Assembly: GCA_902768985.1 (NCBI GenBank)
Contig: CACXNA010000015.1
Location: forward strand, 55,801-119,800
Direction: 5' to 3'
DNA: 64,000 nucleotides
Source: an uncultured Bacteroidia bacterium
GTDB lineage: Bacteria > Bacteroidota > Bacteroidia > Bacteroidales > UBA932
Made by a program: the position numbers and the translations under genes. This document shows, one piece after another, positions 26,823-38,130 of this stretch (its first letter is position 1; every line of letters begins with the position of its first letter). Below the pieces are notes generated by a model that saw only the letters and a list, made by a program, of their open reading frames with translations, was not told the DNA's origin and ran no database searches.

Positions 26823-28150
26823 AGGGGCTTGTATTCAAAGCTGACCAGCTTCGCGTCGCCCTTGAGCCAGTAGCCCGGGCGCAGGGCGAAGAAGCCGTTG
26901 TAGTTGTTGTGATGCCAGCTCGAGAGGTCAAGGCCTTCCTTGATCAGTTCCCATTCGCCGTCTTCTCCCAATCTCCAGATGCTGACGATGTTGCGCTCGT
27001 TCCGGATGCGCTGGGTCCCTCCGGTCAAGTCCCCGGAGTTGGCTTGCTCATTGTAGAAGAGGAAGAGACCGGCGGAGTTTTTCTCCGTTGTTTCGAAGGT
27101 CGCCGTGATCTCGTAGGACTCGTCCACGGCGGTCGTGAGCCAGAGCGTGCCGTCGAAGTAGCCCGGCTGCCACTTGGACCAGAGGAGGGGATTCTGGACG
27201 TCGCGCAGGTAGCTGTAATCGCCCTGCAGGCCGCCTTGTTCCCATTTCGCGCCGTCCTTCTCCGTAAGGACGGGCCAGCCGTCCTCGGTCCACTCGACGC
27301 TCTCGATGATGGTGCTGCGGCCCAGGGTGTGGAAGCCGTTGCGGTAGGCGTGGTAGACGACGTACCAGTTGCCGTCGGCGTCGTCGATCAGGGTGCCGTG
27401 GCCCTTGGACCACCAGGCCTCGTCGGCGCTGTAGGTGTGGACCATCGGGTTGTGCGGGCTGTTCTCCCACGGGCCGAGCGCGCTCTTGCTGCGCGCCACG
27501 ACGACCATGTGGCTCGTGACGGGGCCGGCGGTGCCGCCCTCGGCGCTCACGAGGTAGTAGAAGTCGCCGCGCTTGAAGAGCTTCGGGGACTCCAGCCACA
27601 TGCCTTCGGTCTCCCATTCGGCGGGGTACTCCCAGCCGTCATAGACCTTCTGCGGCTTGCCCGCGGCGGCGAGGCCGTCCGGGGTCAGGGGCGTGACCCA
27701 GCCGTTGTTCGTGTAGAGGTAGCGCTGCCCGTCCTCGGCCACGACGTGGCCCGGGTCGATGCCGCCCACGTCCAGCTTGACCGGCTTGCTCCAGGGGCCC
27801 TCCGGCCGGTCGGCCGTGACGACGTAGTTCTCGCCGCGGCTGGTCGGGTAGTAGATGTAGAACTTGTCACCGACCTTGCAGAGCTCGGGGGCGTAGATGG
27901 AGTAGTCACCGTCCTCGACGGCGCGTGCAATCGGCTCCCAGTGGATCAGGTCCGTGGAGTGCCAGACGAGCAGGGCGGGGAAGTAGGTGAAGGACGAGTG
28001 GGTGATGTAGAAGTCCTTGCCGTCGCGCACGATGCTCGGATCCGGGTAGTCGCCCGGGAAGATGCAGGTCTTGAGCGGCGCCGCCTGGGGCGCGCAGGAG
28101 GCCAGGACGGCGATCGCCGCCAGGGCCGTGAGGAGGGAACGCATTTTCAT
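26819..28150 (-). CDS. Glycoside hydrolase family 43 lipoprotein
   Basis: 443 residues from MKMRSLLTALAAIAVLASC with lipobox Cys19, so it is probably anchored in the outer membrane or periplasm. GH43 enzymes are beta-xylosidases, arabinofuranosidases or arabinanases. Catalytic features: the base Asp in GDYPDPSIVRDG, the pKa-modulating Asp in GGIDPGHV and the acid Glu in GMWLESPKLFK. The five-bladed propeller spans about 25-320. A C-terminal beta-sandwich follows (LWLTTAVDESYEITATFETTEKNSAGLFLFYN), typical of a GH43 accessory domain. The -7 box TATCTTTG is at the complement of 28175-28182. With GH10-CE1 and GH3 in the window it supports hemicellulose use. Confidence 0.92.
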   Translation of the reverse strand: MKMRSLLTALAAIAVLASCAPQAAPLKTCIFPGDYPDPSIVRDGKDFYITHSSFTYFPALLVWHSTDLIHWEPIARAVEDGDYSIYAPELCKVGDKFYIYYPTSRGENYVVTADRPEGPWSKPVKLDVGGIDPGHVVAEDGQRYLYTNNGWVTPLTPDGLAAAGKPQKVYDGWEYPAEWETEGMWLESPKLFKRGDFYYLVSAEGGTAGPVTSHMVVVARSKSALGPWENSPHNPMVHTYSADEAWWSKGHGTLIDDADGNWYVVYHAYRNGFHTLGRSTIIESVEWTEDGWPVLTEKDGAKWEQGGLQGDYSYLRDVQNPLLWSKWQPGYFDGTLWLTTAVDESYEITATFETTEKNSAGLFLFYNEQANSGDLTGGTQRIRNERNIVSIWRLGEDGEWELIKEGLDLSSWHHNNYNGFFALRPGYWLKGDAKLVSFEYKPL

Positions 28151-28307
28151 CCAGATAACGAATTTGTATGAAAACAAAGATACTGATTTTTTGCAGAATA
28201 CGTCGTCATCTGATGGGTTGTCGGGTTGAAATCGTGAATTCAACAACCATGCGAACAGCCTCCAGCCCGTCGCCGGACTCTCCCTGCGGGTCAGCTTCTA
28301 GGCTTCA

Positions 28308-28688
28308 TCACTGTTTCCAGGTATAAACCGTACTGGTTCCCTTGGCATTCGTCTTGGTCACTACATAGACGAACGAGCCAGGAATGGCTTTCTCCTTAAG
28401 CACCGCTGCGGCTTTTTCGCAGGCGGCTTTCACCTTGTCGTCGCCACCGTTGTAGATAAAGTAGCCATTTCCCGGAGTTACTCCCAGTTCCTGCTTGAAG
28501 GCATTCTTGAACGTGTTGTCAATGAGGGTAATGTCAGCGAGGAAGGTGTTGGATGCGGATGAATAGCTGTCAAAACCGAAATTGTACGTGGTGTCACCGA
28601 TTACTTCTTCCTTGGTGCAGGCGCTGAAAAGGGACATCAGGGTGGCGCAGCAAAGGACGGCTGCGAGCGTCATGAGGATCTTTTTCAT
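28308..28688 (-). CDS. Small lipoprotein of the AraC-controlled module
   Basis: 126 residues. Lipoprotein signal MKKILMTLAAVLCCATLMSLFSAC with Cys24. The body is short and polar (YNFGFDSYSSASNTFLADITLI, FKNAFKQELGVTPGNGYFIY, VYVVTKTNAKGTSTVYTWK). The signal region resembles that of the lipoprotein at 34137 (both contain LVTLAA/LMTLAA and LCC), suggesting paralogues. Second gene behind the promoter copy at 30088. No known family recognised. Confidence 0.65.
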   Translation of the reverse strand: MKKILMTLAAVLCCATLMSLFSACTKEEVIGDTTYNFGFDSYSSASNTFLADITLIDNTFKNAFKQELGVTPGNGYFIYNGGDDKVKAACEKAAAVLKEKAIPGSFVYVVTKTNAKGTSTVYTWKQ

Positions 28689-28722
28689 TTGTTTGATTAT
28701 TAATATATTTAATTGATAGGGA

Positions 28723-30090
28723 TCACTTGTTGTTTGGTTCGAAGATGACGTACCAATAGCCATCGACGTCGGGCCTTGCGTAGGCGACCGTCTTCCCGTC
28801 CGAAGAGATGAATCGGTCGAAGATGTTCTCGTCTCCAGGGCGTTGTGCGGTACCTTGATATTGGAATCCCAGTCTGAGCAGCCAGTTCTTGGCGACATCG
28901 TAGGGTAAATCCTCACACCAGTTTTGACAGTAGACATACCGCAGGTTCTTCCCGTCCTCCGTCTCGAAGAGGTACTGCTCCGTGAGCTCCGGGGCCACAT
29001 AGTAATATCGGTGCCAGCTGGCATAGACTTCTTCCCAGTAATCAAGCCCGTCGTTCCCGGCCCGCCACCACGGCTTGGCCTGGATGTGCTTTTCCACATC
29101 GGCAATACTGCAGCCCCAGTCCAATAAGGGATCGGTGACGAGGACGCCGTTTTCGCCGTCATTTATCCATTGGTTTACTTCCCAGTTCGCGCCGCAGAAA
29201 GGAGGTTGCCACTTGCGGGTCTGGTAGTTCAGGTAGATGGTGAAATTGTCTCCCGCTTCCAGCCGAAGGGGCTCCAGGGTACTGAGGAGGTCGTCATCGG
29301 CTCCGTCTTTGCGTTCACCCCAAAACTCCAGGGTCAGATCGTCGCTATGCGCCAGGGTGAAAAAGGTATATCCGTATTTCGGGTGACAATAGGCAACGCA
29401 GTCGTACAGGTCCGGGTCCGTGTTCTCAACATAACGATCTTCTTCGTCCAGGGCGGGGTTGAGGCGAAGTCCGGGGTGGAGCTGTTTCGCCTCGGATCCC
29501 TGTAGCGTGACTTTGTTATAGGCCGGTTCGTCGGGGAGGTTGATGACGGAGAGATGGATGTTGCTGCCCATGGCCTTGGGTGTGAGGCTGACGTCGGCCG
29601 CGCCATTCTGAATCGTCAGCGTCGTAGCATCGTACCCCAATGCATAAATATAAGATACAGGGTTTGCGTTGGCCATGATGCTGACCGTGGAGAGCTCGGA
29701 TTCGTCGACGACATGCCATCCCCGCAGGTCTTTTCCGTTGAGATGAGCAACGATCGTCTGCCAGGCTACAAGTGTGTAAGTGCCGACGGGCAGGTCGTCT
29801 GCCTCGATGGTCATCGGGTTCAGAAACATGGATGTCTCTGCGCCCAGTTTGTTCACCAGATGTCCCTCCTGATTGTATATGAGCACACTGTCGACGACCG
29901 TGATTTTTTTCTGCATAAACAGTAAGTCTATTCCTTCCATGCCCAGTTCGACGTAAAGGGGTTCGGGATTCACCGTGATGGTGGCGTCGAAACGACCTTC
30001 GGAATTGTCTTTCATGCAGGCCGTGAACACCGGCAGGGCCATCAGCAGCGTCAAGGCCACAAATGCAGTAAAAGAATGTTTCATATACAT
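28723..30090 (-). CDS. Lipoprotein, possibly FimB/Mfa2-like beta-sandwich
   Basis: 455 residues from MYMKHSF; this ATG is chosen because it lies at the same position in the 95-bp promoter repeat as the ATG of the gene at 34874. Lipoprotein signal with Cys25 (VFTAC). The stretch VVDSVLIYNQEGHLVNKL followed by LPVGTYTLVAWQT resembles the first beta-sandwich of FimB/Mfa2 fimbrial-anchor proteins, but the long C-terminal part rich in Trp and Tyr (WWRAGNDGLDYWEEVYASWHRYYYV) is not typical. A surface or periplasmic binding role is likely; the family is uncertain. First gene behind promoter copy A. Confidence 0.6.
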   Translation of the reverse strand: MYMKHSFTAFVALTLLMALPVFTACMKDNSEGRFDATITVNPEPLYVELGMEGIDLLFMQKKITVVDSVLIYNQEGHLVNKLGAETSMFLNPMTIEADDLPVGTYTLVAWQTIVAHLNGKDLRGWHVVDESELSTVSIMANANPVSYIYALGYDATTLTIQNGAADVSLTPKAMGSNIHLSVINLPDEPAYNKVTLQGSEAKQLHPGLRLNPALDEEDRYVENTDPDLYDCVAYCHPKYGYTFFTLAHSDDLTLEFWGERKDGADDDLLSTLEPLRLEAGDNFTIYLNYQTRKWQPPFCGANWEVNQWINDGENGVLVTDPLLDWGCSIADVEKHIQAKPWWRAGNDGLDYWEEVYASWHRYYYVAPELTEQYLFETEDGKNLRYVYCQNWCEDLPYDVAKNWLLRLGFQYQGTAQRPGDENIFDRFISSDGKTVAYARPDVDGYWYVIFEPNNK

Positions 30091-30182
30091 ACGCTTTGCT
30101 CGTTAAATCCGGGAGCAAAGGTATACAAAGCGGGGTGGCCTGTTGTGCCACCCCTGCAAATCATTGTGCCAATTCTGCAAAA
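30088..30182 (-). promoter_or_regulatory. Promoter repeat copy A with two 21-bp direct repeats (candidate AraC sites)
   Basis: 95 bp that match 34872-34966 except at about 6 positions, and include the start codon of the downstream gene. Minus strand: -7 TACCTTTG (complement of 30116-30123); no good -33. A palindrome CTTTGCTC/GAGCAAAG (30094-30120) spans the presumed start of transcription. Upstream, a 21-bp unit is repeated: TTGTGCCA at 30143 and 30164, CTGCAAA at 30154 and 30175. A weak -33 with adjacent tandem sites suggests an activator-dependent promoter. It ends one base before the regulator gene's stop codon. Confidence 0.65.
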
Positions 30183-30183
30183 T

Positions 30184-31866
30184 CTACTTTTTGGCCGCTT
30201 TCCGGTAGTCTGAAGGAGACATGGAATAAGCTTCGTCGAAGAGGCGGTAGAAGGTGCGGCGGGTAAGGCCGCAGAGTTCGGCGATAAGTGCCACGGAATC
30301 AGAAGTGGTGGCCAGCAGGCGGGCGGCGTAGCGCAGGCGGTAGCCGTTGATGAAGTCGGTAGGCGTCACGCCGGCGCACTCGCGCAGGGCATCATAGATA
30401 TAGGTGCGGTTGGTGCCGGCCAGGCTGGCCAGCGTGTCCTGGTTGGTGTCGGGATCGGTGAAGACATCGGGGTTGCCCATCAGTTTGCACAGGCGGCGGT
30501 AGAGCAGCTGGCTCTGCGTAAGCGTCTCGGCCGGCCTTTCCTGCAGGGCTTCGCGCTCTTCGGCTTCGGCTTTCTCCTGCTGCTGGATCTCCTGGTAGAG
30601 GCTGCGGTTCTTCTCCTCCAGCGCCTTGTTGTACTTGCGGGCGCGTACAAGGAGATAGCCCACGAGCAGGAGGATGATGATGGCCGAGAGGAGACCGATG
30701 CGGTGCATGGCCAGCGAATGGCGGCGGCTGGTAATCTCGGCCTCTTTCTGGCGGATGACCTCCTGCTGCTCCATGTCCATCTTCCGCTCCTCCACGTGGA
30801 TGGAATCGCTCAGGTGGCGCATGCGGTCGGCGTATGCCATGGCCTCGCCCGTGCGCCCGGCCTTTTGCAAGGCCTTGTACTGGCTCATCATGTAGTTGTC
30901 GATGTAGGAGTTGTTGATGGAGCTGCCCCGGGCCAGATAGAGGGAATCGCTCTTGCGGAACAGGCGGAGGGCCTCGTCATAGCGGCCGACTATCGTCAGG
31001 TAGCGGGCTTCGGCCACCAGGTCATAGGGCGACGGATTGGGAGCCTGCCGGTGCTTCAGGTAGAGCGCCTCGGCCTTGTCGAAAAGGCCGTTGGCGGCAT
31101 AGTTGAGGGCCTGGTTGATGGTCAGGATGCTGCTGCGTGCGTTCAGGATATTCTCCGGCATGTCGGGACAGCGGGTCATGCGGGCCCGGGCCGTATCGCC
31201 TTTGGCGATCAAAGGGAGCGCTTTTTGGGGCAGGTCCTGCTCGAGGTAGAACTCCGTGGTCTCTACGACGGCTACAACCAGGGCGTCTGCAATCCAGTAA
31301 TCTTTGGGCTCTGTTACACCCATCATCAGGTCGATGCCATCCAGATAATAGCGTTCGGCCTCTTCCGGATGCCCCATATTTTTCTCACAATCACCTTTGA
31401 CGGTGAGTGCGCGGCTCTTTATCCGCAGGGCCATCTGCCCGTCCATGCCACCCTTGTCCGCGTCGGCAATCAACTCGTCGGCCAGGTGGATGGCCTTCCC
31501 CCAATCGCCATTCTTGGTCAGCAGGGAGGTGAGCTGGAGCAGAGCCGAATAATAGTTGACGTCTTTGCTCCGGAGTTCGGGACTGTGCTTGATCTGCTCA
31601 CCGTAGTAAACAGCCAGTCGCGTCTTGCCCATTACCCCGTAGACGTTGGAACGGATCAGGTTGGCCGTGGTTTCCGTGAACACGCCTGCGCGCTCGGCGC
31701 TGTCTACCCGCACCAGTACTTGTTCCGGGTTCGAGTATAAGAGATCCTGGAGCTCGTATTTTAGTTGGGTCGCCTCCTCGCTGCGGTCGGGCTTGGCACA
31801 GCCCACCAACAACGACAAAGCCGCTAAAACGACAGTCAACAAGATGGAATATCTGCGTTTTTTCAT
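30184..31866 (-). CDS. Membrane-spanning lipoprotein/TPR/AraC regulator
   Basis: 560 residues from MKKRRYSILLTVVL. Lipoprotein-type signal with Cys23 (LSLLVGC). A TPR-like helical region at about 30-355 (DWGKAIHLADELIADADKGG, GHPEEAERYYLDGIDLM, YDEALRLFRKSDSLYL) is followed by a coiled coil. A membrane helix lies at about 389-407 (GLLSAIIILLLVGYLLVRA), then a second coiled coil, and an AraC-type double HTH at about 472-556 (DTLASLAGTNRTYIYDALREC, VALIAELCGLTRRTFYRLFDEAYSMSPSDYR). This arrangement predicts a periplasmic TPR sensor and a cytoplasmic DNA-binding domain in one protein. It sits between two target-like promoters with 21-bp direct repeats, typical of AraC binding sites. Confidence 0.85.
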   Translation of the reverse strand: MKKRRYSILLTVVLAALSLLVGCAKPDRSEEATQLKYELQDLLYSNPEQVLVRVDSAERAGVFTETTANLIRSNVYGVMGKTRLAVYYGEQIKHSPELRSKDVNYYSALLQLTSLLTKNGDWGKAIHLADELIADADKGGMDGQMALRIKSRALTVKGDCEKNMGHPEEAERYYLDGIDLMMGVTEPKDYWIADALVVAVVETTEFYLEQDLPQKALPLIAKGDTARARMTRCPDMPENILNARSSILTINQALNYAANGLFDKAEALYLKHRQAPNPSPYDLVAEARYLTIVGRYDEALRLFRKSDSLYLARGSSINNSYIDNYMMSQYKALQKAGRTGEAMAYADRMRHLSDSIHVEERKMDMEQQEVIRQKEAEITSRRHSLAMHRIGLLSAIIILLLVGYLLVRARKYNKALEEKNRSLYQEIQQQEKAEAEEREALQERPAETLTQSQLLYRRLCKLMGNPDVFTDPDTNQDTLASLAGTNRTYIYDALRECAGVTPTDFINGYRLRYAARLLATTSDSVALIAELCGLTRRTFYRLFDEAYSMSPSDYRKAAKK

Positions 31867-31916
31867 GTAATGCACTTAAACCGCGCAAAGATAGGCAGAT
31901 TTTTCCAATTTAGGGA

Positions 31917-33449
31917 TTATTCTCCCGTTCGGATGTACTGCAGGGCCCGCTCCAGTTGGTTGTCACGGCCGGTGGCCTCGAAAAGGTTTGCATCCAGGGC
32001 GATGGGGATGTCAGGGGTGACTCCCACGCCTTCCAGGATGCCCAGTTCGTCACTGATGGTACTGCTGGTGGGGATATAGGCATAGAACGGAGTCTCTCCT
32101 CTGACCCCAATGCTGCTGGCGTATGCAAAAGAGTAGTATTCCGGATCGGACAACAGAAGGCTCAATCCTCCCCAGGTGTTGCCGCCCATCACCACGGCGT
32201 TGTCCATAGCCTTGGCTCCCAGACAGGTAAGTTCGGCCATACTCACAGTATTGCTGTTGGCCAGCACCACCACGGGTTCCGTAATGACGGCGTGTTCTGC
32301 TTGCATGGTCGGGAAGTGATTTGGCGTGAGAGGAGAGTAGTCCAGCCGTCCCACCCCGCTTTTGAACCGGGCCGAGGAGACGTTGTGACCTCCGCTGGGA
32401 AGAAGAGCCCCCAGTACATAGGCATAATCGGACGAATAACCGCCGGTGTTGCCGCGGAGGTCAATCACTACGCCTTTGAGTTTTCCTTCCTTGTGCAGGT
32501 CCTGGATGGCCGAGAACCACTCGTTCCAGACAGCGGAAACCCTTTGGGTCATTATTTTCTGGCATTCGCTGGCCATAAGCTTCCCTTCCAAATACTGGCC
32601 CAGATAGAAGCCGGTACAGTGAAAATATGCGATTCCGGGGTCAAAGAGCATAAATTGTATGTCGATCCAGGAAGTGGAGTCGCTGAGGTCAAAGGGTTCA
32701 AACGCAATGCCAATGTTCTGGTACTTGGTGGTAAGGACCTGATTGAAATAGTCCAGATCCTGGATGGATTCCAGTTTGTAAGCGGCCAGTTCCCGATAGG
32801 CTGCCCTGTATTGCACCAGGAAATACAGATCCAGGTCTGTAAGGTCCGCTCTTTTGGCTTCAAGCGCTTTAATGGCCGCATCCAAGGCCTGGAGGGCCGC
32901 TTGCACCTGACCTTCAATGAAGCTGGCGGGTCGGGTGTTTGTCAGATGAAAACGCAAAGCCTGGTTTTCACCGGCCTGGGGAGTGAGATAATAGCCCTTG
33001 TGAGGTGGCCTTCCTTCGTTTATGTCGGGCCGGGAAGCGTTGCGCAATTTGGCAGGATAGATGGCGATATTGTTGCCGGAATCCAGGTTTTTGACTTCCA
33101 CCATGAGATGTCCGTCGTGAAGCGGGGACAGGATGGCGGTGTAAAGGGCTTCCAGCTCTTCGTCGCTCACCGGATTCTCTTCTTCGTCCCGCTGGTCCAG
33201 TTCTTCCATCAGGGGAAGATACTCTCTGTACACGGCGTCCCAGTCCAGCCCGTGCTGCATCTCGTAATCCCAGATTCCGTAATTGCAGTTGAGGCCGGTC
33301 CAAAGCGCCTGGAACTGCGCTGTGAAAGACTGAGATGCCTCTGAAAAAGTAAGAGCGTCCTTTTTGCCATAAGAAAAAATGACGTCGCTTTCCTTACGGC
33401 AGCCGACCGTAGCCAGGACTAATGCCAGAATGACTCCAATCTTTTTCAT
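31917..33449 (-). CDS. S41-family (C-terminal processing) peptidase, lipoprotein
   Basis: 510 residues. Lipoprotein signal MKKIGVILALVLATVGC with Cys17. S41 (tail-specific protease) features are in the second half: KLKGVVIDLRGNTGGYSSD, then VVVLANSNTVSMAELTCLGAKAMDNAVVMGGNTWGG, where the catalytic Ser lies in TVSMAE, and finally the terminal GVGVTPDIPIALDANLF. The N-terminal half is helical and not recognisable. No PDZ domain is evident. Part of the operon 34874-31917, 3 bases after the barrel gene. It may process or degrade a surface protein of the module. Confidence 0.82.
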   Translation of the reverse strand: MKKIGVILALVLATVGCRKESDVIFSYGKKDALTFSEASQSFTAQFQALWTGLNCNYGIWDYEMQHGLDWDAVYREYLPLMEELDQRDEEENPVSDEELEALYTAILSPLHDGHLMVEVKNLDSGNNIAIYPAKLRNASRPDINEGRPPHKGYYLTPQAGENQALRFHLTNTRPASFIEGQVQAALQALDAAIKALEAKRADLTDLDLYFLVQYRAAYRELAAYKLESIQDLDYFNQVLTTKYQNIGIAFEPFDLSDSTSWIDIQFMLFDPGIAYFHCTGFYLGQYLEGKLMASECQKIMTQRVSAVWNEWFSAIQDLHKEGKLKGVVIDLRGNTGGYSSDYAYVLGALLPSGGHNVSSARFKSGVGRLDYSPLTPNHFPTMQAEHAVITEPVVVLANSNTVSMAELTCLGAKAMDNAVVMGGNTWGGLSLLLSDPEYYSFAYASSIGVRGETPFYAYIPTSSTISDELGILEGVGVTPDIPIALDANLFEATGRDNQLERALQYIRTGE

Positions 33450-33452
33450 AGG

Positions 33453-34121
33453 CTAGAAAATATAAAAGACGCCTGCCTGCAGGCCGATGGTTGTATTATA
33501 ACGAGGGTCCTGGATAATCATATAGTCTTTCTGGGTGCTGGTGAGGCCGTAGTAGCAGCGGGCCTCGGCCTGAACGGCCCAGTGGGAGAGAAAACGCCAT
33601 TCCACCCCGACACCGCCGGCAAGGCCCCACTCCGTGCGGTTGTCCCGGGTGGAATCAAAAACAAAGTCTTCGTCCACATCCGTTACCTGATCAGACGTTA
33701 CGTTAATATACTTTCCTTTCAGATGGGAGGAGCACCACCAGGCTCCATAACCGCCCAGGTTCAAGAACCCCCTTACGAAGGAACCTCCAAAACTGAAGGA
33801 AGCCATCACAGGTAACTGCAGATAACTGTTGGCAGTGACGTAGTCGGTTCCCGATAAAGACTCGAAGGTCCTTTGCTGACGGTAATTCTTGGCCGTCATA
33901 TTGAGTTCGGCCCGCACACCCAGCCAGTCGGCAAAATTGTACTGGCCCGCAATACCGGCACTGGGGCCCCACTGTCCCCGGTATTTGAGGTCTGCCATAT
34001 AGTGCGTGTCAATGGAATAATGGTTCCAGACGGCGCCTCCAAAGACGCCCGCGCGCCACTGGGCCTGGGCCGAATAACTCAGCAATAAGAGCGCGGTCAG
34101 GAGCAGGGTGGTTTTTTTCAT
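33453..34121 (-). CDS. PorT/OmpA-like outer-membrane beta-barrel protein
   Basis: 222 residues with signal peptide MKKTTLLLTALLLLSYSAQAQ. Predicted eight-stranded barrel: WRAGVFGGAVWNHYS, GPSAGIAGQYNFADWLGVRAELNMTAKNY, LQLPVMASFSFG, RGFLNLGGYGAWWCSS, WGLAGGVGVEWRFLSHWAVQAEARCYYGL, TIGLQAGVFYIF, ending in the terminal aromatic residue needed for barrel assembly. It matches the 'porin family / outer membrane beta-barrel' (PF13568-like) pattern. The lipoprotein gene upstream ends 15 bases before its start. Confidence 0.82.
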   Translation of the reverse strand: MKKTTLLLTALLLLSYSAQAQWRAGVFGGAVWNHYSIDTHYMADLKYRGQWGPSAGIAGQYNFADWLGVRAELNMTAKNYRQQRTFESLSGTDYVTANSYLQLPVMASFSFGGSFVRGFLNLGGYGAWWCSSHLKGKYINVTSDQVTDVDEDFVFDSTRDNRTEWGLAGGVGVEWRFLSHWAVQAEARCYYGLTSTQKDYMIIQDPRYNTTIGLQAGVFYIF

Positions 34122-34136
34122 GCAAATATAGATTGT

Positions 34137-34697
34137 TTACTCCCAGCTGCCGCTGGTGGCGGTGCCGTCGGCGGCGAAGTTGAAGAGATATTTCATGATG
34201 GGTTTTTCGAGATACCTTTCGGCATAGGCGGGAACCTTGTCATACTGCATGCTGGTGCCGCCGCTCACTCCCCTGGAAACAGTCTCTCCCAGCTTCTCAT
34301 TGCTTTTGTTGACGACATAGTACTCGTAGTTGTAAGTGTACTTGGCATTGAACACGCCCATTTGGGCGGGATCGAAACCGCTCTTCAGCTTGATCATCAC
34401 GCGGGCGCCCAGGGTGGCGGGCAGCTGGTTGGCCTTGACGGATTTGGTCCACGTTTTCGAAGTCATGGTCTCGCTCTTTACCGCACCGGTGGCATCGTAG
34501 TACTCCATAGTCAGGGTGAACGCATTGAAGAGGTCATCGGTGACCGAAAAACTGTAGTCCATCACGGCGGCAACGGGGGTGGTGTCTTTCGTCGTCGGGG
34601 TCTCAGGCTGGTCGGGAAGGGTTTTTTCGCAGGATGTAAACAGGGTGGTGCAGCAAAGCATGGCTGCAAGCGTCACAAGAATCATTTTCGTTTTCAT
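34137..34697 (-). CDS. Lipoprotein of the AraC-controlled module
   Basis: 186 residues. Lipoprotein signal MKTKMILVTLAAMLCCTTLFTSC with Cys23, then a Pro/Thr linker (PDQPETPTTKDTTP). A compact beta-rich domain follows (AAVMDYSFSVTDDLFNAFTLTMEYYDATG, LPATLGARVMIKLKSGFD, YTYNYEYYVVNKSNEK, IMKYLFNFAADGTATSGSWE). No named family recognised. The signal resembles that of the lipoprotein at 28308. Starts 3 bases after the small membrane-protein gene. Confidence 0.65.
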   Translation of the reverse strand: MKTKMILVTLAAMLCCTTLFTSCEKTLPDQPETPTTKDTTPVAAVMDYSFSVTDDLFNAFTLTMEYYDATGAVKSETMTSKTWTKSVKANQLPATLGARVMIKLKSGFDPAQMGVFNAKYTYNYEYYVVNKSNEKLGETVSRGVSGGTSMQYDKVPAYAERYLEKPIMKYLFNFAADGTATSGSWE

Positions 34698-34700
34698 AAA

Positions 34701-34874
34701 TTATTTGTTATTGAATTTGTCTGACAGTTCGAGATTCTCCTGGATAAACCTGGCCAGGGCGGCGTTTTTATCTCCAATCCGCCACTGTTGGTACACGATG
34801 ATGGCCACCAGCAACAGGACGATGACGATGATGGCGGCTGCCAGGGCTACGGTGATGATCAGGGTGAAATCCAT
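34701..34874 (-). CDS. 57-residue single-pass membrane protein
   Basis: MDFTLIITVALAAA at the start, then a continuous hydrophobic stretch to about residue 28 (IIVIVLLLVAIIVYQQW) and a polar cytoplasmic-type tail (RIGDKNAALARFIQENLEL). Its ATG lies at the same place in promoter copy B as the start of the lipoprotein gene in copy A. First gene of the operon 34874-31917. No known family. The exact match of its start to the repeat and the 3-base spacing to the next gene support it as real. Confidence 0.6.
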   Translation of the reverse strand: MDFTLIITVALAAAIIVIVLLLVAIIVYQQWRIGDKNAALARFIQENLELSDKFNNK

Positions 34875-34966
34875 ACGCTTTGCTCGCTAAATCCGGGAGC
34901 AAAGGTATGCAAAGTGGGATGGACTGTTGTGCCACCCGTGCAAATCATTGTGCCAATTCTGCAAAA
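34872..34966 (-). promoter_or_regulatory. Promoter repeat copy B with two 21-bp direct repeats
   Basis: Near-identical to 30088-30182 (offset 4784). -7 TACCTTTG is the complement of 34900-34907. TTGTGCCA repeats are at 34927 and 34948, 21 bp apart. The palindrome CTTTGCTC/GAGCAAAG is at 34878-34904. The upstream repeat lies inside the last codons and stop of mutT, unlike copy A, where it lies just beyond the regulator stop. Confidence 0.65.
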
Positions 34967-35346
34967 CCTGCCTCGATGAGGGGAAGGAGCTCCTCGTCGG
35001 CCGGGAGCCACCGGACGCTGTGCAGGTCCGTGGCTCCCAGCCAGCGGGCGGCTTCGTGCTCGTTGAGGTGCAGGGCCTCGCTTGCGAGCGAGCACAGATA
35101 GCAGTGCATCGTGAGGTGGAACTGCGGGTAGTCGTAATCCACCGTGTGCAGGAAGGCGTCCACGCGGATCTCGGCCGAGAGTTCCTCCCGGATCTCCCGG
35201 ACGAGCGCCGCCTCCGGCGTCTCGCCGGGCTCCATTTTCCCGCCCGGGAATTCCCACCAGTCCTTCCAGTCGCCATAGCCCCGCTGGGTGGCAAAGATCT
35301 TGTCCCCCTTGCGGATGATGGCTGCGACGACTTCGATGGTTTTCAC
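34945..35346 (-). CDS. MutT-type Nudix hydrolase
   Basis: 133 residues from a GTG start (VKTIEVVAAIIRKGDKIFATQRG). Hydrolyses oxidised nucleotides such as 8-oxo-dGTP. The Nudix box is complete: GGKMEPGETPEAALVREI followed by REELSAEI. WWEFPGGK and the C-terminal LGATDLHSVRWLPADEELL also fit MutT. No ATG exists near the expected start; the longer frame to 35610 is antisense to the nucleoside hydrolase. It begins 14 bases after that gene, so it is probably the last gene of the nucleoside hydrolase unit. Its 3' end overlaps promoter copy B. Confidence 0.88.
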   Translation of the reverse strand: MKTIEVVAAIIRKGDKIFATQRGYGDWKDWWEFPGGKMEPGETPEAALVREIREELSAEIRVDAFLHTVDYDYPQFHLTMHCYLCSLASEALHLNEHEAARWLGATDLHSVRWLPADEELLPLIEAGFAELAQ

Positions 35347-35360
35347 GGGCAGGTGACAGG

Positions 35361-36728
35361 CTAGTGCTGGATGGACATCAGGCGGATATACTTCAGGACG
35401 TAGTCCGACCAGCCCTCGGGGCCGGGGTACTGGTAGCGGGCGTTGCCGTTCGGGTCCTCCCGGAAGATGGTCTCGCCGGTGGGGGTCAGCGTGACCCAGC
35501 CGCGCGGGGAGAGCTTGTAGAAGATGTCGTCGCCCTCGACCGCGTTGATGACGGCGAGCGGGTCCCACATCTTCTGGAACTTGTCCTCGGTGAGGAACTG
35601 GTAGATCCACTTGATCGGGTGGGCGTCGGTCCAGTCCATGTCTTCGATGATTTGGGCGGCGCTGTAGTACAACGGATCGCCGACCTCGCCCGGGGAGAAG
35701 ACGATGTCGATGTCCTTGGGCAGGAGTTCGAAGAACTTGAGGGAGAAGTCGATGGCGGCCGTGAAGTTGTAGTCGTGCTCGAAGGAATCGCCGAACACGC
35801 CGCCCATCGCATAGATGTTCTTGACCTTGCGCTGCACGAGCTCCACGCCGCTGAGCGGGGAGTACTCGTCCGGACCGGACTCGAGCAGGCGGGCGAGGGA
35901 CGTCACGAAGCCGATGGAAGCGATGGTGACGGACTTGTCCGGCTGCGCGGCCAGGAGCTTGCGGTAGAGCTTGTAGCCGTCCATGTAGTCCCCGTCGTCG
36001 CCGATGCTGCGCTTGAAGAGCGGCTCGGCGTCGGTCGAGCGGGCGTAAGCCATGTTGTGGTAGGGGATATAGACGTGCGGATCTGCGACGCCGGCCCGCT
36101 CCAGGGCGATGGGGATGTCGGGATAGCCGTAGTAGTTGTTCAGCACGTCGACGGCGTCGGCGTTGGCCCGGTTCATGCGGTCCACGACCACGCCGAGCAG
36201 GGTGCAGCGCTTCATGTCCATGTAGCGGTAGAGCATCATCAGGGCGAAGAGGTCGTCGGTGGAGGATCCCATGTCACAGTCGAGGATGATGCGGAGATCC
36301 TCCTGCTCATAGTCGGACCTGACGTTGATGTTCAGGGAGGTCACGTGCAGCGAGAGTTGGGCGTTCTCGCGGGCGAAAGCCATCGCGGCGGCGAGGCTGT
36401 CCTCCGGGAAGGAACGGGAGCTGTCGAAGTAAAAGCGGTCGTCGTCGGCGTTGTACCAGCCGCCCACGAGGTTCTCGTGGGCATGGGCGTGCTTGATGAC
36501 GGCAGGAAGGCTCTTGCGGTCGAAGCTGTTCTGGGTGGCCTCATAGGCGACGATCAGGCCTTCCTTCGGGTAGCTCATGGTGTTGAGGTCGAGCGTGAAG
36601 CCCTCGGGCATCGTCTGGCTCATCACCCACAGGGCCGTCGCCAGATCCTTGTCGGAGACGGTCTGCTGCCCGAATCCGGGCACCGACAAGATCAGCAGCG
36701 TGACGGCTATCAATAGAATACGTTTCAT
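35361..36728 (-). CDS. Secreted nucleoside hydrolase with extra N-terminal domain (second copy)
   Basis: 455 residues from MKRILLIAVTLLILSVPGFGQ. The inosine-uridine nucleoside hydrolase part begins at about residue 145 (LRIILDCDMGSSTDDLFALMMLYRYMD), with the DxDxxxxDD calcium site in a slightly altered form (DCDMGSSTDD), and TIASIGFVTSLARLL and YAMGGVFG further on. Residues 22-135 form a separate domain (EGFTLDLNTMSYPKEGLIVAYE, VGGWYNADDDRFYFDSSRSFPEDSLAAAMAFARENAQ) resembling one I recall from phage and mobile-element proteins. Likely periplasmic nucleoside salvage. Paralogue of the gene just upstream. Confidence 0.82.
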   Translation of the reverse strand: MKRILLIAVTLLILSVPGFGQQTVSDKDLATALWVMSQTMPEGFTLDLNTMSYPKEGLIVAYEATQNSFDRKSLPAVIKHAHAHENLVGGWYNADDDRFYFDSSRSFPEDSLAAAMAFARENAQLSLHVTSLNINVRSDYEQEDLRIILDCDMGSSTDDLFALMMLYRYMDMKRCTLLGVVVDRMNRANADAVDVLNNYYGYPDIPIALERAGVADPHVYIPYHNMAYARSTDAEPLFKRSIGDDGDYMDGYKLYRKLLAAQPDKSVTIASIGFVTSLARLLESGPDEYSPLSGVELVQRKVKNIYAMGGVFGDSFEHDYNFTAAIDFSLKFFELLPKDIDIVFSPGEVGDPLYYSAAQIIEDMDWTDAHPIKWIYQFLTEDKFQKMWDPLAVINAVEGDDIFYKLSPRGWVTLTPTGETIFREDPNGNARYQYPGPEGWSDYVLKYIRLMSIQH

Positions 36729-36754
36729 GTTGCTTGGTTTGCAAAAATCATAAG

Positions 36755-36775
36755 GCACTGACAGCACGTCAGTGC
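36755..36775 (-). terminator. Perfect stem-loop between the tandem nucleoside hydrolase genes
   Basis: GCACTGAC-agcac-GTCAGTGC, overlapping the stop codon of the upstream gene. No T-run follows directly, so it may attenuate transcription or protect the upstream mRNA rather than fully terminate. Confidence 0.45.
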
Positions 36776-38130
36776 TGAATCGCCATCAGACGGATGTACT
36801 TAAGCACCATGTCGCACCAGACGGGGTCGCCGACATACTGGTAGCGGGCGTTGCCGTTCGGATCCTCCTTGAAGAGGGTCTCGCCGTTCGGGGTGAGGGT
36901 CACCCAGCCGCGCGGGGAGAGCTTGTAGAAGCCGTCGCCCTCGACGGCGTTGATGACCGCCTGCGGGTCCCACATCTTCTGGCCGGTGTCGCAGTTGAGG
37001 AACTGGTAGGTCCACTTGATCGGGTGCAGGTCCGTCCAGGACATGTCGGAGATGACGGTCTCGGGACGGTAGTCCAGCGGGTCGCCGACCTCGCCCGGGG
37101 AGAAGACGATGTCGATTTCCTTCGGCAGGAGCTCGAAGAACTTCAGGGAGAAGTCGATGGCAGCCTTGAAGTTGTAGTCGGGCTCGACGGCGTCGCCGAA
37201 CACGCCGCCCATCGCGTAGATGTCCTTGACCTTGCGGCGCATCAGCTCGACGCCATTGAGCGGGGAGTACTCGTCCGGGCCGGACTCGAGCAGGCGGGCG
37301 AGGGACGTCACGAAGCCGATGGAGGCGATGGTGACGGACTTGTCCGGGGACTCCGCGAGGAGCTTGCGGTAGAGCTTGTAGCTCTCCATGTAGGTGCCGT
37401 TGTCACCGACGCTGCGCTTGAACATGGGCACGGCGTCCGTGGAACGGGCGTAGGGGAGGTTATGGTAGGTGATGAACACGTGCGGGGTGGGAATGCCCTG
37501 GGTCTCCAGGCCGATGGGGATGTCGGGATAGCCGTAGAAGTTGTTCAGCACGTCCACAATGTCGGCGTTGGCCTTGCCCATGCGGTCCACGATCACGCCG
37601 ATGAGGTTGCAGCGCTTCATGTCCATGTAGCGGTAGAGCATCATCAGGGCGAAGAGGTCGTCGGTGGAGGAACCCATGTCGCAGTCGAGGATCACGCGGA
37701 TGTCCTTCTGCTCGTAGTTCGTCCAGATGTTGATGTCCTTGGAGGCGCAGTAGATCGTGTGCTGGCCGTTGTCACGGGCGAACTGCACCGCGGCGGCGAG
37801 GCTGTCCTCCGGGAACATCCGGGTGCTGTCGAAGTAGTAGTGGCCGTCCTCTTCGTTGTACCAGCCGCCCACAAGGTTCTGATGGGCGTGGGCATGCTTG
37901 ATGACGGCGGGGAGGCTCTTGCGGTCGAAACTGTTCTGCGTCTCCTTGTACGAGACCATCAGACCTTCGGTCGGCTGACGCATCGTGTCGAGGTCCAGGG
38001 TGAATCCGTCCGGGTACATCTGCCCCATGGCATAAATGACATTGACCAAATCCTTGTCGGAGATCTTTTCCTGGGCGTAGACCGGCAGGAATGCGCAGCA
38101 GAGTGCAAGCGCAAACAGTACTTTTTTCAT
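36769..38130 (-). CDS. Secreted nucleoside hydrolase with extra N-terminal domain (first copy)
   Basis: 453 residues, signal peptide MKKVLFALALCCAFLPVYAQ. Same two-part structure as the neighbour: N-terminal domain (DGFTLDLDTMRQPTEGLMVSYKETQ, LVGGWYNEEDGHYYFDSTRMFPEDSLAAAVQFARDNGQ), then the nucleoside hydrolase fold from about 143 (VILDCDMGSSTDDLFALMMLYRYMD, PDIPIGLETQ, VTIASIGFVTSLARLL, YAMGGVFGD). The two proteins share most motifs along their length, so they arose by tandem duplication; both keep the active-site Asp residues. The gene diverges from lpdA, with the promoters in the 104-bp gap. Confidence 0.83.
   Translation of the reverse strand: MKKVLFALALCCAFLPVYAQEKISDKDLVNVIYAMGQMYPDGFTLDLDTMRQPTEGLMVSYKETQNSFDRKSLPAVIKHAHAHQNLVGGWYNEEDGHYYFDSTRMFPEDSLAAAVQFARDNGQHTIYCASKDINIWTNYEQKDIRVILDCDMGSSTDDLFALMMLYRYMDMKRCNLIGVIVDRMGKANADIVDVLNNFYGYPDIPIGLETQGIPTPHVFITYHNLPYARSTDAVPMFKRSVGDNGTYMESYKLYRKLLAESPDKSVTIASIGFVTSLARLLESGPDEYSPLNGVELMRRKVKDIYAMGGVFGDAVEPDYNFKAAIDFSLKFFELLPKEIDIVFSPGEVGDPLDYRPETVISDMSWTDLHPIKWTYQFLNCDTGQKMWDPQAVINAVEGDGFYKLSPRGWVTLTPNGETLFKEDPNGNARYQYVGDPVWCDMVLKYIRLMAIQH

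Follow-up and report, generated by a model that had tools for sequence, protein, structure and literature searches.

Near-identical direct-repeat promoters as probable targets of the membrane-spanning AraC-type regulator encoded between them in a Bacteroidales bacterium

What controls two almost identical promoter sequences that stand before different genes and have the gene of an AraC-type regulator between them? The question comes from a 64,000-nucleotide stretch of DNA of an uncultured Bacteroidia bacterium, here called the window, in which a sequence-only reading had picked out two 95-bp promoter copies (P1 and P2) and linked their repeats to the AraC protein encoded nearby. We consider that P1 and P2 are probably operator-promoters of this membrane-spanning regulator, which would activate both operons, a reading drawn from the comparison of related loci. 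The genes and promoter copies concerned are:

28308..28688 (-), gene of a 126-aa lipoprotein, possibly in the P1 operon, from sequence
28723..30090 (-), Mfa2/FimB-like lipoprotein gene behind P1 (Pfam Mfa2, 22.7 bits, cut-off 21.2)
30088..30182 (-), promoter copy P1, directly 3′ of the regulator stop codon and upstream of the Mfa2-like gene
30184..31866 (-), regulator, 560 aa, with lipobox Cys23, TPR-like repeats, membrane segment, coiled coil and AraC helix-turn-helix
31886..31893 (-), candidate -7 element of the regulator itself, TATCTTTG, without tandem boxes
31917..33449 (-), S41 peptidase lipoprotein behind P2 (Pfam Peptidase_S41, 4.4e-14)
33453..34121 (-), outer-membrane beta-barrel protein behind P2 (Pfam OMP_b-brl_2, 1.5e-18)
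34137..34697 (-), 186-aa lipoprotein behind P2, with homologues near the same promoter in relatives
34701..34874 (-), 57-aa protein with a single membrane segment behind P2; genes of this kind usually come first after such operators
34872..34966 (-), promoter copy P2, joined to the Nudix gene at its 3′ end
34945..35346 (-), Nudix hydrolase (Pfam NUDIX, 3e-21), its last residues encoded by box 1 of P2

P1 and P2 match without gaps over 101 bp (30085-30185 and 34869-34969) with eight mismatches (93/101 identical). Six of these fall within the 95 bp, as the sequence-only reading had estimated, and in a wider view by eye the likeness stops at the ends of the 101 bp, in keeping with the common limits it had described. 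The copied piece starts within the regulator stop codon and ends at the start codon of the following gene, and the upstream copy, P2, starts inside the 3′ end of the Nudix gene; the Nudix proteins of relatives have different ends. The copies do flank the regulator, but not the regulator alone: they enclose five genes, encoding the small membrane protein, the lipoprotein, the outer-membrane barrel, the S41 peptidase and the regulator. In the organism's own genome (2.35 Mb, 95% complete, 28 contigs) the 101 bp occur twice and no third copy is found. Many copies at unrelated genes, which had been named as evidence against a common control, are thus not seen there, although some relatives have tandem sites apart from any such regulator.

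The elements within the two copies are:

30164..30181 (-), P1 box 1, TTTGCAGAATTGGCACAA, from sequence and family motif
30143..30160 (-), P1 box 2, TTTGCAGGGGTGGCACAA, from sequence
30132..30154 (-), hairpin of eight pairs in box 2 and spacer of P1, possible terminator of the regulator transcript
30116..30123 (-), P1 -7 element TACCTTTG, 19 bp after box 2, from sequence
34948..34965 (-), P2 box 1, from sequence
34927..34944 (-), P2 box 2, from sequence
34900..34907 (-), P2 -7 element TACCTTTG, from sequence

Each copy has two boxes of the form TTTGCA-N4-TGGCACAA, 21 bp apart, followed after 19 bp by the Bacteroidota -7 element. All four boxes fit this form exactly, so that the two 21-bp direct repeats noticed in each copy are real, and the -33 element is rightly called weak because TTTG is absent at -33 and the end of box 2 occupies its place. 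The genome holds four exact boxes, all at P1 and P2, where simple arithmetic for 14 fixed bases gives an expectation of about 0.02; when up to two mismatches are allowed, 10 matches are listed, against 4 for a reversed control pattern. TTTGCA and TGGCAC were also considered as a sigma-54 site and rejected because their order is wrong or their spacing 1 bp too long. A scan of positions 28000-38000 against Rfam at gathering scores found nothing.

The regulator ends in the double helix-turn-helix of AraC/XylS proteins (HTH_18 at 479-556, 56 bits, cut-off 33.6), and this binding domain aligns with SoxS (7w5w_J). Inspection places the lipobox cysteine at residue 23 and a single hydrophobic segment at about 390-407, while the TPR-like repeats score below the Pfam cut-offs. 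A TAnnTTTG motif lies no more than 150 bp upstream of the regulator gene in 9 of 10 orthologues examined.

Is the association of boxes and regulator a general one? Tandem boxes of the form TTTSY-N5-TGRNACAW with a period of 21 (score at least 19 of 24) follow the regulator stop codon at no more than 138 bp in 47 of 54 homologous loci, and at no more than 12 bp in 27; the consensus was derived from the same loci that were later scored, and these are related, some coming from nearly the same genome. Each of the 47 scores exceeds those of all 200 letter shuffles of its locus, and the mean score at period 21 is 10.3 compared with at most 5.46 at every other period from 14 to 31. The -7 element, which does not count in the box score, is present as TAnnTTTG at a distance of exactly 19 bp from box 2 in 42 of the 47 loci. 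It also stands at 19 bp in all 16 further tandem sites examined elsewhere in these loci, namely those scoring at least 21 (21 sites beyond the 300 bp score at least 20); one of the 16 is P2 of the nearest relative found (G080), and two pairs are orthologous. An araI1-I2-type operator has the same layout, with a pair of direct-repeat half-sites spaced by about 21 bp beside a promoter. Seven of the 54 loci lack boxes within 300 bp of the regulator: four of them (L117, L123, L133 and L145) have boxes elsewhere on the contig and the genome of a fifth (L113) has them on another contig, while no tandem boxes were seen for L136 and L153.

The boxes vary with the protein that lies next to them. Operator distance follows binding-domain distance (r 0.842; partial r 0.834 given the sensor; reached in 0 of 300 permutations) and not sensor distance (partial r -0.078); since the boxes lie right beside the sequence for the binding domain, linkage rather than contact accounts for part of this correlation. 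Within the second recognition helix, residue 537 varies with one base of the box: Arg with C (16/16), Val with A (5/5), Pro with G (2/2), Ala with G or T (17/17) and Thr with A in three of four cases (one Thr with G), the three Ser537 being mixed. Of 11 changes at operator position 34, eight fall on branches where residue 537 changes too (13 changes, 92 branches, p 1.9e-6), one of these eight shared branches, the ancestor of L141 and L116, being doubtful in that Pro is paired there with A through an arbitrary tie. At position 13, residue 540 fits slightly better than 537. In three groups of relatives the binding domains have been swapped, and the boxes match the domain. Comparison across loci thus shows linkage, a fixed geometry and boxes that match the binding domain; position (47/54), domain-following operators, residue-base covariation and domain swaps support the proposed tie between the repeats and the neighbouring AraC protein, and suggest that it recognises the paired boxes.

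The boxes could also be bound by another regulator of the cell, be it an AraC protein or a hybrid two-component system, with the neighbour adjacent by chance or binding elsewhere. There are 10 matches to AraC domains in the own genome, the regulator included, and AraC-type hybrid two-component systems of Bacteroides have predicted direct repeats with a period of 20-21 bp (excerpts of PMC3878776). Moreover, for 8 of the 18 site loci examined, in six genomes of relatives (G126, G154, G319, G347, G401 and G402), the 1.9-3 kb retrieved contain no regulator of this type, which means that such boxes also serve regulators that are distant or of another kind. Against this stand the agreement of boxes with the adjacent binding domain over 47 loci, swapped ones included, and the finding, at E 1e-20, of a single regulator of this family in the own genome; we regard it as quite unlikely that another protein takes the place of the neighbour.

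The origin of the two copies raises a further question, since they might be left-overs of a duplication, alike through recency or gene conversion and with no common regulatory role. The copied piece is indeed exactly an intergenic one, and the gene order resembles that of a rearranged tandem duplication. Seven close relatives have a single tandem copy. The cultured relative Xylanibacter ruminicola D31d (L124) likewise carries one copy linked to its regulator. Between the own genome and G080, P1 and its counterpart differ at one position and P2 and its counterpart at eight, as do P1 and P2 themselves; this comparison shows that the duplication is older than the split of the two genomes. Across 14 aligned promoters the core (22/24 columns) and the -7 element (8/8) are nearly invariant whereas the spacer drifts (8/19; inner box 7/12, leader 12/28), and similar boxes stand behind regulators with as little as 28% identity, which makes mere left-overs very improbable. 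Of the alternatives first offered for the likeness, selection or recent copying, recency does not stand: the copies were already separate before the split from G080, and therefore both copying and selection are involved.

The locus may have been rearranged in such a way that the old cargo moved with a promoter copy upstream of the regulator and new cargo took its place behind it. A member of the small membrane protein family is encoded no more than 6 kb downstream in 43 of 55 loci and within 250 bp of the regulator stop codon in 36 of 55. At E 1e-20 the Mfa2-like gene is matched in 4 of 400 genomes of the genus, with a close match outside the own genome in G080 only. A paralogue elsewhere in the genome, with 31% identity (G000:C11), lies in a 4.3-kb locus without tandem boxes (best score 16), and the Mfa2 gene was therefore probably recruited to the locus.

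A hairpin is often embedded in the second box across loci, mostly where a separate terminator is absent. That of P1 has an eight-pair stem and the tail GCTTTGTATA, and a scan for terminator-like sites gives 6 such sites compared with 5.5 in shuffles; the accompanying promoter scan is for sigma-70, which does not cover Bacteroidota promoters, and the terminator half alone was used. The element could be mainly an RNA device, with the repeats as part of an RNA whose hairpin ends or attenuates transcription. Where a separate terminator is absent, the stem shows covariation (149 of 192 cells paired in type B, 89 of 108 in type A; 0 of 500 shuffles reach either). The hairpin is at least as stable as -14 kcal/mol in 22 of the 27 loci whose boxes lie no more than 12 bp from the stop codon and in 0 of 8 with a separate terminator, the cut and the terminator rule having been chosen after the sequences were viewed and the rule not counting the long separate hairpins of L115 and L142. 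Six box-bearing loci that by this rule lack a separate terminator (L137, L139, L146, L151, L152 and L155) nevertheless have hairpins weaker than -5 kcal/mol, that of P2 (-11.1) is weaker than that of P1 (-19.5), and an RNA device leaves the 21-bp period and the constant spacing to the -7 element unexplained, so that we give it very little credence.

Returning to the regulator as the protein that acts on the boxes, we infer binding, activation rather than repression, the two operons and a signal. Two DNA-binding domains would lie side by side on the tandem boxes and, with box 2 occupying the position of the absent -33 element, the bound regulator would, we propose, bring RNA polymerase to the -7 element located 19 bp further on. 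The TPR-like sensor would read a signal outside the inner membrane, which would pass through one membrane helix and turn on both operons together: that of P2, with the small membrane protein, the lipoprotein, the outer-membrane barrel, the peptidase and possibly, by read-through, the regulator, and that of P1, with the Mfa2-like and a second lipoprotein (the 126-aa protein, without Pfam match over the 125 residues scanned). The P1 hairpin would be the regulator's own terminator. The regulator might instead be a repressor that sits over the -33 region and keeps both operons off until a signal releases it, and a box 2 at that place fits either mode. However, P1 and P2 lack a TTTG at -33 that could function unaided, and AraC proteins bound to direct repeats beside a promoter are usually activators; repression therefore seems unlikely.

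In E. coli, AraC binds araI1-I2, direct-repeat half-sites about 21 bp apart of which the inner one overlaps the promoter's upstream element; the protein is soluble, senses a sugar and also loops DNA. The locus described here has the same type of binding domain and the same arrangement of half-sites and promoter, whereas its regulator spans the membrane and has its boxes behind its own stop codon. Direct-repeat operators for AraC-type regulators are already known. AraC-type hybrid two-component systems of Bacteroides similarly join a periplasmic sensor, a membrane segment and an AraC-type output in one polypeptide and have predicted direct-repeat sites (16+5, 12+9 and 14+6 bp; excerpts of PMC3878776 and PMC11253607). 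In contrast, the present regulator has no histidine kinase or receiver domain among its Pfam matches up to E 0.01, its sensor is TPR-like, and the cargo seen consists of surface lipoproteins, peptidases and secreted peptides. SusR-like regulators are also membrane-spanning one-component activators with predicted direct-repeat sites, but their DNA-binding end is described as without significant similarity to other known factors (excerpts of PMC3878776), a description that sets them apart from the HTH_18 end found here. Some operons of relatives resemble Bacteroidales peptide-secretion clusters in having a peptidase-type peptide exporter (in L137, TIGR03796, 886 bits, cut-off 853) and, by inspection, double-glycine-leader peptides; the genes following P1 and P2 showed no exporter of this type. 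Excerpts of PMC10352776 mention a helix-turn-helix gene in one such cluster and TPR genes in two, and no operator. Neither a membrane AraC/TPR regulator of this kind nor a stop-codon-adjacent, swappable operator was found in the literature searched, partly as excerpts (PMC7366714 included) and with most subscription papers outside it.

The 3′ end of the regulator gene, the embedded terminator and the operator may together form one exchangeable specificity cassette, in which recombination in or near conserved coiled-coil codons would swap the DNA-binding domain with its matching operator, and a copied operator before a second operon would be how the local regulon grows; we hold this to be an evenly balanced proposition. 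If true, a sensor can be rewired to a new DNA specificity and its cargo exchanged with the circuit unbroken. The relatives provide a natural domain-swap series of how a one-component circuit may change its DNA specificity and retain its target, the regulon seems to have gained a new operon through duplication of the promoter, and the residue-to-base table at 537 offers a predicted DNA code for membrane regulators of rumen Bacteroidales, which opens their regulon and specificity to direct tests.

A resemblance by eye between the 57-aa protein and the membrane and coiled-coil segment of the regulator was dropped (hhalign probability 6.4%, E 0.006 in a one-entry search). The source of the window is a gut bacterium, and its relatives come from ruminant stomachs.

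The locus lies on contig 15 of a 2.35-Mb genome (95% complete). Its nearest named relatives belong to Bacteroidales; most are metagenome assemblies, and those whose titles give a source point to rumen, omasum or reticulum. The genes concerned are all on the minus strand and, read along it, in the order Nudix, P2, 57-aa membrane protein, 186-aa lipoprotein, outer-membrane barrel, S41 peptidase, regulator, P1, Mfa2-like lipoprotein and 126-aa lipoprotein. The principal features are:

30088..30182, minus strand, promoter copy P1 (two boxes of period 21, then a -7 element)
30184..31866, minus strand, 560-aa membrane-spanning AraC-type regulator
34701..34874, minus strand, small membrane protein with a single membrane segment
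34872..34966, minus strand, promoter copy P2 (same layout as P1)

P1 and P2 can be aligned along 101 bp; of the 8 mismatches, 6 fall within the 95 bp that a sequence-only reading had described as duplicated promoters flanking the regulator. The pair is real. The search for further copies that this reading had called for found no third copy in the genome, and the exact box occurs four times, all in P1 and P2. At 30094-30120 in P1, and at the equivalent place in P2, the -7 element and leader are spanned by an 8-bp inverted repeat, CTTTGCTC/GAGCAAAG, which is not conserved in every relative. Each promoter is followed by a lipoprotein whose signal-peptide codons are 83% identical to those of the other (28638-28690 and 34641-34693), although the two proteins are otherwise different; the relatives' cargo repeatedly shows similar signal peptides.

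A scan of the named genomes with 14 aligned regulators as query gave 55 loci, some closely related, of which 54 had enough downstream sequence. In 47/54, tandem boxes (TTTSY-N5-TGRNACAW, period 21) follow the regulator stop codon at a distance of 2 to 138 bp, which in 27 of the 47 is no more than 12 bp. For each of these 47 loci none of 200 letter shuffles reached the real box score, and period 21 scored 10.3 compared with at most 5.46 at other periods; the consensus was derived from the very sequences scored, so independent tests carry more weight. The motif TAnnTTTG, the -7 motif known from Bacteroidota (available text of PMC7366714), stands exactly 19 bp past box 2 in 42 of the 47 loci, and does so at 16/16 further tandem sites (score at least 21) elsewhere in these loci, which include P2 of the nearest relative found, G080, and two orthologous pairs. 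When 22 whole genomes, chosen because they hold the regulator or the site, were searched with up to 2 mismatches, each had at least one tandem site and none the reversed control pattern. The box pair of the window's own kind (up to 3 mismatches) is present in 12 of 400 genomes drawn from the genus, 10 of them also with a regulator match. The remaining two, G154 and G347, carry a variant pair before lipoprotein-like genes, with no regulator found near it on the stretch fetched. Such variant operators (as TTTGCACAGATGACACAA and TTTGCGCGGGTGACACAA) also precede lipoprotein-like genes in G126 (L077, L078 and L166 for the three genomes), again with no regulator of this membrane AraC type beside them on the stretch fetched. 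Unlinked tandem operators are also found ahead of double-glycine-leader-like peptide genes in P. ruminicola KHT3 and one relative (L157, L168, L170).

Direct-repeat operators of 20-21 bp period have already been predicted for AraC-type membrane regulators of Bacteroides (available text of PMC3878776), and the window's boxes are likewise direct repeats, of period 21; its operators are therefore a variation on a known theme. In the literature searched we found no account of an operator just behind the regulator stop codon, of a hairpin built into such an operator, or of joint exchange of binding domain and operator.

Comparison of the sequences across relatives indicates that the boxes and the regulator's binding domain belong together, and so upholds the earlier proposal tying the AraC regulator to the P1 and P2 repeats. 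Across the 47 loci the correlation of operator distance is 0.842 with binding-domain distance (0.834 with sensor distance removed) and -0.078 with sensor distance once the binding domain is removed. Since the boxes adjoin the binding-domain codons, plain linkage contributes to this correlation. Positions 13 and 34 of the operator are equivalent bases of the two boxes, and the letter found there tracks residue 537. In alignment this residue corresponds to Gln86 of SoxS, which lies in the second recognition helix, a helix with a role in DNA contact. Arg is found with C (16/16), Val with A (5/5), Pro with G (2/2), Thr with A (3/4) and Ala with G or T (17/17); Ser, with three cases, is mixed. In a tree that left out the DNA-binding domain, 8/11 changes at position 34 coincide with a branch on which residue 537 changes (p 1.9e-6), the strongest result among columns 462-560 for that base; at position 13 the count is 8/16 (p 1.1e-4), residue 540 being slightly better there (1.7e-5). 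Both counts come from one parsimony reconstruction with ties arbitrary, and one shared branch, that ancestral to L141 and L116, is doubtful, since it combines Pro with A.

Several loci represent natural domain swaps. L141 and L116 are 72-77% identical in sensor and coiled coil and 46-48% in the binding domain, whereas the binding domain of L141 is 78-92% identical to that of L125, and L141 carries L125-type boxes. L137 and L102 share 11-26% identity in the sensor and 76-80% in the binding domain, and L137 has boxes of the L102 kind; L139, beside L137 on the sensor tree, has a binding domain and boxes of the same kind (judged by grouping). In L140, compared from about residue 351 onward, the membrane segment is nearest L149 and L151, but the binding domain shares 86-88% identity with L112 and L116, and the boxes are of the L116 type. 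L117, a weaker fourth case, has its boxes about 0.9 kb downstream, ahead of a small membrane protein. The crossovers map to a stretch from about residue 410 to 465. With the boxes placed behind the binding domain, a single exchange can transfer both, and such joint exchange would explain the stop-codon-adjacent layout.

The variable middle of box 2 can pair with the spacer to form a hairpin. In loci without a separate terminator, the pairing covaries, with 149/192 cells paired for type B (shuffles at most 139) and 89/108 for type A (at most 87); the 8 loci with a separate terminator show no pairing excess (type B 5/24, type A 28/45). With a cut fixed after seeing the data, folds of -14 kcal/mol or better occur in 22/27 loci with boxes no more than 12 bp from the stop codon, in 5/12 others and in 0/8 with a separate terminator before the boxes (22/27 against 0/8: Fisher p 5e-5; rank test p 7e-4). 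The hairpin probably serves to end the regulator transcript. However, six loci have boxes and neither hairpin kind (L137, L139, L146, L151, L152, L155), the tail is T-poor and, in G122, where tandem copy and regulator are on different contigs, the copy retains its hairpin although it is not placed behind a regulator. In the window the P1 hairpin is kept (-19.5) and that of P2 is weaker (-11.1), as in G080 (-19.5 and -11.5).

The regulator gene has its own candidate -7 element without tandem boxes, as in 9/10 orthologues (the window's included), which suggests that the protein is probably made independently of its boxes. Its lipobox Cys23 is invariant in 14 aligned sequences and nearly so in 40. 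The binding domain, an AraC helix-turn-helix at residues 479-556, is also preceded by TPR-like repeats, every match below the Pfam cut-off, by a hydrophobic segment that inspection places at about residues 390-407, and by a coiled coil that is conserved (KNRSLYQEI). The regulator's Pfam matches include neither a kinase nor a receiver domain, and the protein is therefore not classed among hybrid two-component systems.

A single tandem copy, behind the regulator and followed by the small membrane protein, is present in seven relatives whose regulators are similar (G073, G298, G363, G276, G319, G396, G113). Among genomes with such sites, two copies occur only in the window's own genome and G080. 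In both, the older cargo follows P2 on the upstream side of the regulator, and behind P1 lies the Mfa2-like gene, whose close matches among the 400 genomes are confined to these two. Box 1 of P2 encodes the C-terminal end of Nudix in both species; the Nudix proteins of relatives have other endings, such as LIEKELSAKED in G319. Differences number 1 between P1 and its G080 counterpart P1', 8 between P2 and P2', 8 between P1 and P2 and 13 between P1' and P2', which indicates that the duplication predates the species split and that P1 is the less changed copy. A tandem duplication followed by loss of one regulator would yield the present gene order. G276 also has a lone box, TTTGCAGGATTGGCACA (L086:7727-7742), a few bases behind its 186-aa-type lipoprotein gene, which may be left over from a further operator copy. 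In G080 the stretch behind P2 yielded only a fragment of the barrel gene (L082:7021-7410) and no S41 peptidase match, whereas P2 itself is still present, as are the small membrane protein and the regulator.

Judging from the encoded proteins, the cargo theme is cell envelope and secretion. The small membrane protein lies within 6 kb downstream in 43/55 loci; lipoproteins, S41 and M13 peptidases and barrels are among the other cargo, as are a peptide exporter (TIGR03796 in L137) and, by inspection, double-glycine-leader peptides. At L112, a 13.7-kb locus, three more tandem promoters of the window's type were found, so additional promoters around the regulator are not unique to the window. Proteins of about 57-60 aa with a single membrane segment form a family behind such promoters in many loci (L103-L156); neither of the two members scanned gave an above-cut-off match in Pfam or NCBIfam. 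In the cargo of L105, L106 and L115, large lipoprotein genes are preceded by short peptides (about 50 aa) that share a YEAPS-TI-VEVK-EGVICQSG-like pattern. In the window, neighbouring genes of 468 and 453 aa (35361-38130, minus strand) are tandem duplicates, with 81-84% DNA identity in long blocks.
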